Below, in pieces: positions 23,183 through 48,165 of a stretch of DNA of 64,000 nucleotides (within the stretch, counting starts at the first letter, position 1; each line of letters opens with the position of its first letter). Where the stretch lies: contig CANNIA010000004.1 in the NCBI GenBank assembly GCA_947504705.1, positions 62,001-126,000 of the forward strand. The letters are read 5' to 3'. This DNA comes from Paracoccaceae bacterium (GTDB lineage: Bacteria > Pseudomonadota > Alphaproteobacteria > Rhodobacterales > Rhodobacteraceae). The notes under the pieces were generated by a model. The model saw only the letters and a program-made list of their open reading frames with translations, was not told the DNA's origin and made no database searches. The position numbers and the translations under genes are program-made.

Positions 23183-24268
23183 TTAAGACAGCCGGATGCG
23201 GGGATTGAGGAAGACATAGCCGATGTCCGAGATCAGTTGCGTAATCAGGACAAGGACCACGGCGACGACGGAACAGCCAAGCAGAAGCTCGATGTCGTTG
23301 TTGCCGGCGGCTTGCACCAGCGTCCAGCCGAAGCCTTTGTAGTTATACAGGGTCTCGACAATCACGACGCCGTTCAGAAGCCAAGGGAATTGCAGCATAA
23401 TCACGGTGAAAGGCGCGATCAGCGCGTTTCTTAGCGCGTGACGCACAACGACCTGCCGAAAGCCAACGCCCTTCAACCGCGCAGTGCGGATGTATTGGGC
23501 GGTCATCACCTCGGTCATCGAAGCGCGGGTCATTCGGGCGATATAGCCGATGCCGTAAAGCGCGATGGTCATCACCGGCAGTGCGAAGTTCCAGAAGTTG
23601 ATGTCCTCCATGGCGCTGGTCGCGGTGCCCATGAACAGCGTCCTACCTTCGATCCAGCCCGCGCCGGACAAAAACGGTGATAACCCGGACATAGGCGAGG
23701 CAAGAAGGGCGATAAACACGACGCCAGAAACATATTCAGGAGTAGCCGTCGACGCGATCGAGAAGGCGGACAGCAACCGGTCGGTGCGCGAACCTTCCCG
23801 CATCCCGGACAGAACCCCAAGGAAAAGCGCAGTTGGCACCATGACCGCCATGACCGCAAACATCAGCCAGCCGGTTAACGACAGTGAACGTCCGATCACC
23901 TGCGACACCGGAAGCTTGAAGACGCTGGACTGGCCCCAGTCGCCCTGCAAAAGCCCGCAGAAGCGGGGAGCGGTGGCAGGATCGGCGTCCTTTTCAAGGC
24001 AGCGCCCAGTGGGCGTTCCATTCTGGGCCGTCCCTGTCCAGCCGGGCAAAAGGCCAAGCCACTGACCATAACGGTTCAGCGGCGAAGAATCATAGCCGTT
24101 CTCGGACAGCCAGGTGCCAACCTCGGCATCCGAAATCCGGGTTCCGGCCTCGGATTTGGCCAGTTTCTCCAGGTTCGGCGGCAGGTTGGTCAACCAAAAG
24201 ACGATGAAGGTCAGTGCAAATGCCGTCAAAAGCATCACGAATAGGCGTTTGATGACGAACTTCAGCAT
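23183..24268 (-). CDS. Peptide-type ABC transporter permease (DppB-like)
   Basis: A 361-residue permease beginning LKFVIKRLFVMLLTAFALTFIVF, the usual first membrane helix of DppB/OppB, followed by a periplasmic loop longer than average (residues 30-125) with two cysteines (GRCLEKD, RFCGLLQ). The coupling motif is YIRTARLKGVGFRQVVVRHALRNALIAP near residue 250. It is the second gene after the binding protein, separated by a 103-nt spacer containing two hairpins. Confidence 0.88.
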   Translation of the reverse strand: MLKFVIKRLFVMLLTAFALTFIVFWLTNLPPNLEKLAKSEAGTRISDAEVGTWLSENGYDSSPLNRYGQWLGLLPGWTGTAQNGTPTGRCLEKDADPATAPRFCGLLQGDWGQSSVFKLPVSQVIGRSLSLTGWLMFAVMAVMVPTALFLGVLSGMREGSRTDRLLSAFSIASTATPEYVSGVVFIALLASPMSGLSPFLSGAGWIEGRTLFMGTATSAMEDINFWNFALPVMTIALYGIGYIARMTRASMTEVMTAQYIRTARLKGVGFRQVVVRHALRNALIAPFTVIMLQFPWLLNGVVIVETLYNYKGFGWTLVQAAGNNDIELLLGCSVVAVVLVLITQLISDIGYVFLNPRIRLS

Positions 24269-43078: not shown

Positions 43079-47340
<4,262 letters not shown>

Positions 47341-47433
47341 GACCGCTCATCCCTCCCTTGCTGGCGGTCTTCGCTGAGCAGCGATGAGTTCCGTCAGGGA
47401 TGAAGAGCGTTTGATCCCTGAATGTTCTTCTAT

Positions 47434-47448
47434 GTTCCTAAAAAGTTC
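47434..47448 (+). promoter_or_regulatory. LexA (SOS) box, GTTC-N7-GTTC
   Basis: GTTCCTAAAAAGTTC has the direct-repeat GTTC-N7-GTTC form known for LexA of Rhodobacter and other alphaproteobacteria. A third GTTC lies at 47424-47427. It abuts a possible -35 TTTACA (47449-47454), with AACAAT about 18 bp on, so bound LexA would block this promoter. The box is 54 bp before the small gene at 47503. Confidence 0.7.
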
Positions 47449-47502
47449 TTTACAAGGTTAACGGATTGTGAGAACAATATAGCAACAATAACGGAGGATG
47501 CG

Positions 47503-47625
47503 ATGAAAGAGGCGATGAAAACCCTGCTCTCCACCACCCCGCGTGGCGCGATCGAGGATCTGGTTGGTGTTGTGTCCCTGTTCGTTCTGGTTTTTGCCAT
47601 GCTGTCCCTGCCCAGCCTGGCCTGA
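47503..47625 (+). CDS. 40-residue single-span membrane protein, candidate SOS-induced peptide
   Basis: The ATG at 47503 lies 5 nt after a perfect GGAGG; another in-frame ATG at 47515 would give 36 residues. The peptide starts with a short polar and basic part (MKEAMKTLLSTTPRGAIED), followed by about 20 hydrophobic residues (VVSLFVLVFAMLSLP) to the end, so one inner-membrane span is predicted. A LexA-type box precedes it and a likely terminator follows. By analogy with SOS-induced small membrane proteins such as Caulobacter SidA (division inhibitor) or E. coli TisB (toxin), it may arrest growth or division after DNA damage. Homology to those is not claimed. Confidence 0.65.
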   Translation: MKEAMKTLLSTTPRGAIEDLVGVVSLFVLVFAMLSLPSLA

Positions 47626-47700
47626 AGGTTTCTGCCCCGCGCTCTGCCCCATACACGGTCTTCCCGCCATTTGCCTGGCCTACCGTTTCCAGACGCGCAC

Positions 47701-47731
47701 CTGCCGTCCCTGTGACGTGCGGCGGTTTTTT
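47701..47731 (+). terminator. Likely terminator after the small membrane-protein gene
   Basis: CTGCCG (47701-47706) pairs with CGGCGG (47720-47725, one G-U) around a 13-nt loop and is followed by TTTTTT. It lies 75 nt after the small gene and meets the 3' end of the reverse-strand NifU-like gene. Confidence 0.55.
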
Positions 47732-48165
47732 CATGTGGCCGCTTCCATGGCCTCGCAGACCGCCTCCAGCGCCAGAAGGATCGAGGCGTGGCGGTTCTTG
47801 TAGTCGCGGGCGGGGAGGAGGGCTTCGTAGCCTTGGAACGGGGCTGCGGGGACCGGGCCGTTGTTCTTGAGCATGGCTTTCAGGGCGTCGCGGGCGGACT
47901 GAAGCTCGGGCAGGCTGCGGCCGATCACGGCTTGGCCAAGGATGGCAGCCGAGGCCTGACCAAGGGCGCAGGCTTTCACGTCCTGCGCGAACTCGGCGAC
48001 TTTGCCGTTCTTGACGACCACATCCGCCGCCACGGTCGACCCGCAGAGAGGGGAGCGGCGGCGGGCGGTGCCTTGGGGCTGGGAGAGTCGCCCCAGATGC
48101 GGGATATCGACCGCGAGGGCAAGGATGCGGGTCGAGTAGAGTTTGATGAGGTCGCTGTCGCTCAT
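47731..48165 (-). CDS. NifU/IscU-like iron-sulfur scaffold protein
   Basis: A 144-residue protein with the IscU/SufU-type cysteines: SPLCGSTV (Cys41), KACALGQAS (Cys66) and a late cysteine in ALEAVCEAM. The ending PARDYKNRHASILLALEAV resembles the R-x-x-C region of scaffolds, here R-H-A-S rather than R-x-x-C. It could take part in cluster assembly or be a scaffold-like paralogue; the third ligand is displaced, so function is uncertain. The start region is duplicated at the DNA level (48153-48188). Confidence 0.78.
   Translation of the reverse strand: MSDSDLIKLYSTRILALAVDIPHLGRLSQPQGTARRRSPLCGSTVAADVVVKNGKVAEFAQDVKACALGQASAAILGQAVIGRSLPELQSARDALKAMLKNNGPVPAAPFQGYEALLPARDYKNRHASILLALEAVCEAMEAAT

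Follow-up and report, generated by a model that had tools for sequence, protein, structure and literature searches.

What is the role of a 40-codon reading frame that lies behind LexA-type operator sequences and directly downstream of recG? We examined this question in a 64-kb stretch of Rhodobacteraceae DNA (64,000 nucleotides, hereafter the window). The answer that we favor, tentatively and at a little less than an even chance, is a LexA-repressed, monocistronic, bifunctional SOS transcript of the Rhodobacteraceae that would specify a SidA-like membrane brake together with a regulatory RNA. The position of the frame (47503..47625, plus strand) downstream of recG (45256..47340, plus strand; tblastn), as given in an initial annotation of this DNA, is preserved by synteny, with recG upstream of the peptide gene in 30/30 loci of the genus. 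A 711-residue frame that reads by eye as NAD-dependent DNA ligase (ligA) and recG together span 43124–47340 and directly precede the peptide gene, and these surroundings are a DNA-repair neighborhood. On the other side, a convergent frame (47731–48160, minus strand) reads by eye as a NifU/IscU-like scaffold protein, a relative of which was found by tblastn in 29 of the 30 genus loci.

The frame is well supported, by its conservation in sequence, as a real gene that has no existing name. Its 40-residue peptide matched 30 of the 31 other genomes of the genus by tblastn, and the sole genome without a match (G010) is 59% complete. All 30 genus loci that were fetched, the window's included, carry the 40-codon frame, which starts with ATG in 29 and with GTG in one. 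Diversity at codon positions 1, 2 and 3 was 0.224, 0.102 and 0.417, pN/pS was 0.34 over 435 pairs, and dN/dS was 0.27 over the 348 pairs with pS below 0.6; the coding frame is under protein-level selection, a property looked for in a dual-function transcript. A longer in-frame ATG at 47422 (67 residues) was considered and dropped, because its position precedes both boxes and promoter and the frames of relatives do not line up with it. The GGAGG that had been noted before the frame is present as a ribosome-binding site at 47493–47497 (plus strand), and GGAG is seen by eye in the aligned genus loci except L025.

Upstream of the gene, the initial annotation had listed GTTC-N7-GTTC, a third GTTC and a possible promoter just after the boxes, all of which are in place. 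Box 1 (GTTCCTAAAAAGTTC, 47434..47448, plus strand) is the only GTTC-N7-GTTC in the window, against 1.87 expected by chance, so that on its own it proves nothing and the case rests on conservation. Across the source genome (G000) the pattern is not enriched, with 103 matches compared to 209 for the reversed control, a deficit that could reflect selection against stray LexA boxes. The box is located at -69/-70 of the 40-codon frame in 30/30 genus loci, the window's included, and the extra GTTC half-site (47424..47427, plus strand), which begins 10 nt upstream of box 1, recurs at the same spacing in 29 of the 30 (L036 differs). Box 1 abuts a -35-like hexamer, TTTACA (47449..47454, plus strand), that is identical in 30 genus loci, and a promoter scan of the window placed a -10-like hexamer, AACAAT, at 47473..47478 (plus strand). 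This hexamer is overlapped by an inverted second box that had been missed initially (box 2, GAAC-N7-CAAC, GAACAATATAGCAAC, 47472..47486, plus strand); both boxes are present in 29/30 genus loci. By eye, the genus promoter consensus reads (GTTC-N6-)GTTCTTAAAAAGTTCTTTACA-N14-TGAGAACAAT-N3-GCAACA.

The exact 21-mer GTTCTTAAAAAGTTCTTTACA was found at 118 or more loci in our genome collection and not in viral contigs; most of the 80 titles among the matches listed are Rhodobacteraceae or Rhodobacterales. By tblastn, recG was detected in 111 of 118 such motif loci, and in 110 of these 111 it ends 0–400 bp upstream on the same strand. The seven motif loci without a recG match are L049, L063, L089 (cut close to the motif), L095, L100, L149 and L096, the last of which, a Lunatimonas record, was rejected as a chance match. 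Six of the 118 (L062, L079, L095, L096, L121 and L149) have no frame matching the search pattern.

To follow the protein beyond the genus, we used a profile (A1) built from 57 members, most of them from other genera. Among family genomes that were all at least 95% complete, the profile matched 269/296 (268/295 genera) and gave no match in 27; most of the genomes among the matches listed hold one copy and some hold two. A class sample of 387 genomes yielded 12 matches, six of which are full-length and come from the same family, and the other six were rejected as chance, being partial and located inside frames of 245–401 residues. A tblastn search of plasmid and phage records with one family member returned no match. 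Presence in 269/296 family genomes, mostly in single copy and beside recG in 111/118 motif loci, is not the patchy distribution of a mobile element.

The gene nevertheless seems truly absent from some genomes of the family. Among 20 examined genomes without a protein match, 16 also have no two-box site. In G032 and G074 a two-box site is followed by a recognizable short membrane frame, which makes 269/296 a slight undercount, and in G212 nothing nameable follows it. In G068 (contig C45, locus L290) the two-box arrangement precedes a frame reading as recA, and for this reason the geometry is not unique to the peptide gene. A LexA match was obtained in 17 of these 20 genomes, three lacking LexA, and in 20/20 genomes with the protein (chosen mostly for few contigs), numbers too few to weigh.

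We then used protein-selected loci to avoid selection by the promoter motif itself. In 35 such loci from other genera (the 30 best family profile matches and five from the class sample), box 1 was present in 35/35; its spacer varies, and only eight of the loci match the 21-mer exactly. Together with the loci of 30 weak matches these made 65 loci, of which 55 carry GTTC-N7-GTTC, 57 carry GAAC-N7-(G/C)AAC (GAACN7SAAC) and 13 carry GAAC-N7-GAAC. At least one exact box is found in 59/65, compared to a single exact box in the 174,307 bases of their flanks. Box 2 is perfect in some of the weak loci that lack box 1, and three loci (L259, L263 and L274) have none of the box forms. Box 2 follows box 1 by 23 nt in 44 of the 50 loci carrying both. 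At the genome level, 73 of 100 genomes contained the two-box pattern, compared to 4 for its reversed control, and in 18 genomes compared by eye (G036, G064, G067, G089, G090, G092, G099, G110, G111, G115, G119, G128, G130, G132, G133, G144, G150 and G151) the site is situated just upstream of the profile-matched frame. The initial annotation had proposed a tblastn search for the frame in relatives with the box upstream of it, and conservation of both is borne out by these counts.

That annotation had also taken GTTC-N7-GTTC to be a LexA operator form, in agreement with its occurrence before lexA and recA of the genus. An upstream box was found in 28/30 lexA loci (GAACACGGGCAGAAC-type; in the other two the start was placed far upstream by our script) and in 29/29 scorable recA loci (GAACACTTGGGGAAC-type; one of the 30 is cut). 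In the 28 loci whose start was found, CTTGACACAAACCGGGAACACGGGCAGAACATT is little changed in the lexA promoter of the genus (L157–L186). In an excerpt of PMC12700426, GTTCN7GTTC is the Caulobacter LexA box. LexA would therefore be the natural reader of these boxes, and the prediction that it controls a conserved small membrane protein has strong support from a box that is conserved in relatives and shared with genus lexA and recA. Binding of the GTTC boxes by some other regulator would fit the six protein-selected loci without an exact box, but the identical box before lexA and recA and the match to the published Caulobacter box make it very improbable.

The initial description of the frame as encoding one hydrophobic span holds for the family members compared. 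A hydrophobic 17-mer with a Kyte-Doolittle mean of 1.82 or more occurs in 57/57 aligned members, none of the 57 has a charged residue after the aspartate, and the N-terminal part is net positive in 37/57. Asp19, Gly22 and Leu34 (D19, G22 and L34) are kept in 57/57 members at identities to the window peptide down to 20%, L26 is kept in 53/57, and P37 in 52/57. AlphaFold2 returned a short helix (residues 2–10) and a long helix (residues 16–39) with a mean pLDDT of 86 and a pTM of 0.46. A single predicted membrane helix is evident from these sequences, and its topology would be N-in. In silico, the peptide has the attributes of SidA, namely those of an SOS-controlled short single-span inner-membrane protein; SidA of Caulobacter crescentus has 29 residues, is SOS-controlled and stops division by contacting FtsW, according to an excerpt of PMC4211646. 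SulA (PF03846) was absent from 61 family genomes in a search that found the E. coli control, and the window peptide has no Pfam match, to PF03846 or otherwise. Because of the analogy with SidA and the absence of SulA from the 61 genomes, a division brake is our best single guess for the peptide, a guess that we consider possible and hold with reserve. The growth or division inhibitor proposed in the initial annotation is thus a putative role.

Conservation of D19 and G22 suggests a protein partner. Such helix residues indicate a partner and not which one, and the peptide may instead regulate another membrane protein outside the divisome, for instance a protease, a transporter or the machinery of DNA uptake; we judge this unlikely and found nothing against it, the SidA analogy and the SulA absence being the only two points that favor the divisome. 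It is quite improbable that the gene encodes a TisB-like SOS peptide that depolarizes the membrane, with the RNA tail described below limiting its synthesis or stability. The peptide is short, hydrophobic and SOS-boxed, as this would require, but its gene is mostly single copy, syntenic and present in most of the family, the family member searched matched no plasmid or phage records, the leader is short, a consensus scan found no promoter-like site on the minus strand of 47300–47800, and D19 and G22 point to a protein partner.

The initial reading of the locus, a small membrane protein under LexA control, stands as a prediction from sequence and was incomplete, since in addition to box 2 it missed an RNA on the 3' side. 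In many other genera a second conserved stretch lies behind the stop codon. These tails consist, in order, of TTTCTGCCTGCG, one strand of a long-range helix (P1), three hairpins, the P1 return strand and a terminator; the hairpin loops are CUGUCCC-like in the first, CUGCC-like in the second and often UGCCUC or CUGUCCC in the third. The terminator of relatives (GCCGCCGCC..GCGGCGGTTTTTT-like) is conserved and longer than that of the window. The motif CUGYCY occurs 2.94 times per tail, compared to 0.46 in dinucleotide shuffles, as counted in 121 of 127 tails (six without a recognized terminator were dropped).

Because the consensus from aligning 44 tails by sequence was poor, the fold was drawn by hand on nine tails. 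It pairs 84.4% of cells, compared to 80.5% in column shuffles and 32–42% when slid, and the same nine-row alignment contains 16 doubly changed cells versus 6.9 in column shuffles; this alignment was made without structure, and the fold was drawn from those same sequences. A covariance model from the nine tails (R1) matched 43/92 motif loci at E<=0.1, two of the matches being training rows. We deliberately excluded the other 26 of the 118, most of which belong to the genus with the short form described below, the rest being cut, off-target or other variants. All 43 matches are on the strand of the peptide gene and start 0–25 nt past its stop codon. R1 also matched 30/40 other sources (seven of them training rows), missing the window, L010, L012, L013, L028, L218, L222, L228, L234 and L239. 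In whole genomes it gave one match in each of 22/100, which by eye falls within ~80 nt after the frame, on the same strand, in the 20 genomes with a listed frame. R1 is a narrow model.

A second model (R2), built from the 43 R1 matches, produced 45 matches at E<=1, spread over 44 of the 65 protein-selected loci, with E<=0.01 in 35 loci. Judged by coordinates, one of the 45 matches is stray and the other 44 are on the strand of the frame and 3' of it; among the 45, two are identical to training rows, three more are over 0.9 similar, and seven are rows from which the fold was first drawn. In the R2 alignment, which was fitted to the fold and favors it, 294 doubly changed cells keep the pair versus 87 in shuffles. 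All of the larger covariation counts come from structure-fitted alignments; the nine-row alignment, which was not fitted, exceeds its shuffles by less. Of the letters that make up the motif, 85% are unpaired, compared to 59% of all letters, and the motif stands at three or four of four sites in 71/88 rows and at one or two in 17 (the 88 rows are the 43 and the 45, partly the same RNAs). These data identify, at the level of sequence, a covarying multi-arm fold with CUGYC in the 5' strand and hairpin loops in many genera. Rfam gave no match over the tail in the window and seven other loci, and chance-level matches elsewhere, apart from RF02647 (Cis52_sRNA, the Ruegeria cis52 sRNA) at window positions 23428–23604 with 91 bits.

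In the window and its genus the tail is shortened, to 108 nt in the window. Its parts are a CUGCCCC lead, P1 (GCGCUCUG with CAGA/GCGC), a reduced inner part and the terminator; the RNA occupies 47632..47698 (plus strand), where 47639–47646 pairs with 47690–47693 and 47695–47698 to form P1. R2 found 0/30 genus sources, and the R1 misses include the window and four genus loci, with no R1 match in the window's own genome either. RNAalifold recovered P1 in the genus with 0 of eight pairs changed on both sides, i.e., no covariation, and the window tail is no more stable than shuffles (z of -0.70 and -0.86). As both the models and covariation fail in the genus, the identity of the window's RNA with that of other genera is argued from where the tail lies, from its lead motif and from the similarity of its P1 strands. 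The initial annotation had also reported a terminator-like hairpin after the frame. A hairpin and T-run is present at 47701..47731 (plus strand; stem 47701–47707 with 47719–47725, then T6), with a z of -1.25 versus shuffles, and a strict terminator scan found none. The 5' arm of this terminator (47701–47725) is shorter than in relatives, reading GCCGTCCC instead of GCCGCCGCCATCC or GCCGCCGCCGTCCC.

These features bear on whether the RNA has a role of its own. The peptide could work alone, with the RNA as a 3' untranslated stabilizer and terminator that protects a very short mRNA and no target in trans. An RNA that directly follows the stop codon and ends in a terminator is consistent with this, as is the genus of the window, which keeps the peptide and a short RNA without most arms. 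However, a motif repeated in the 5' strand and loops of a covarying fold exceeds the needs of a stabilizer, and even the short form retains a lead and P1 strands that hardly vary; we consider this explanation unlikely. The repeated, exposed motifs on a covarying scaffold suggest that the RNA acts in trans, by pairing or protein capture, and we somewhat favor such action over a purely stabilizing tail.

The sequences show the gene, its two-box promoter, a predicted membrane helix and, in many genera, the RNA fold; from these we infer the following bifunctional mechanism. In undamaged cells, LexA would occupy both inverted boxes, of which box 1 abuts the -35-like element and box 2 covers the -10-like one, and keep the promoter shut. 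DNA damage would lead to RecA-driven cleavage of LexA and induction of a transcript with a short leader. The first part of this transcript would be translated into a 40-residue bitopic membrane peptide with a short N-terminal helix, D19 at the membrane edge, a membrane helix and a short LPGL-type tail. Its conserved D19-G22-L26 face would most likely dock on a divisome protein in the membrane and thereby delay division, as SidA does in Caulobacter. The 3' part would be the folded RNA, presenting CUGYC motifs in its 5' single strand and hairpin loops, and would most likely act in trans, either pairing with G-rich mRNA sites or titrating an RNA-binding protein. In its fullest form, one LexA-clamped promoter would deliver two products, a division-halting peptide and a trans-acting RNA with up to four CUGYC copies that reprograms translation after DNA damage; we regard this as possible, at somewhat less than even odds.

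Across bacterial groups, SOS checkpoint effectors show little conservation, a statement made for sulA in an excerpt of PMC4211646, and many groups have no known one. If our reading is correct, most Rhodobacteraceae have a candidate checkpoint gene that is absent from the curated libraries searched, and it may be a missing part of how the family pauses when its DNA is broken. The Rhodobacteraceae are ecologically important and include the Roseobacter-group bacteria and the Rhodobacter/Cereibacter models. The locus would further supply a structured RNA of a new class, with a repeated motif that offers a direct way to look for its partner, and a new small-protein family, to which is added a two-box LexA-type promoter of near-fixed geometry. 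No Pfam or NCBIfam model fits the window peptide or its family, and neither gene nor RNA is described in titles or abstracts of open-access literature among the matches listed, consistent with the initial annotation, which had named no described gene of this kind.

Precedents exist separately for small SOS membrane proteins, for dual-function RNAs and for motif-repeat RNAs. Pfam, NCBIfam, Rfam and the literature matches listed yielded neither the combination of these nor the protein family or the RNA fold. SidA shares with the present peptide the nature of a LexA-controlled short inner-membrane protein of an alphaproteobacterium with a GTTCN7GTTC box, LexA control being predicted here from sequence. 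A structured RNA tail, present here, is not mentioned for SidA in the excerpt of PMC4211646. With 29 residues compared to 40, SidA is likened to the peptide by features and not by sequence. TisB and similar proteins are SOS-induced short hydrophobic peptides, and TisB shares with our gene a short hydrophobic product behind an SOS-type promoter; in contrast, the gene described here is family-wide and mostly single copy, has a short leader, and showed no antisense promoter in a consensus scan. SgrS/SgrT, a dual-function small RNA that also encodes a peptide, similarly joins a coding part and a structured RNA part in one transcript, whereas here the RNA follows the frame, carries repeated C-rich motifs and is preceded by LexA-type boxes at the promoter. 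CcsR, LhrC and CsrB are regulatory RNAs with C-rich loops or multi-site sponges and, like the tail, expose several copies of one short motif; the tail differs from them in its motif, CUGYC, in its lack of an Rfam match, and in a fold of its own.
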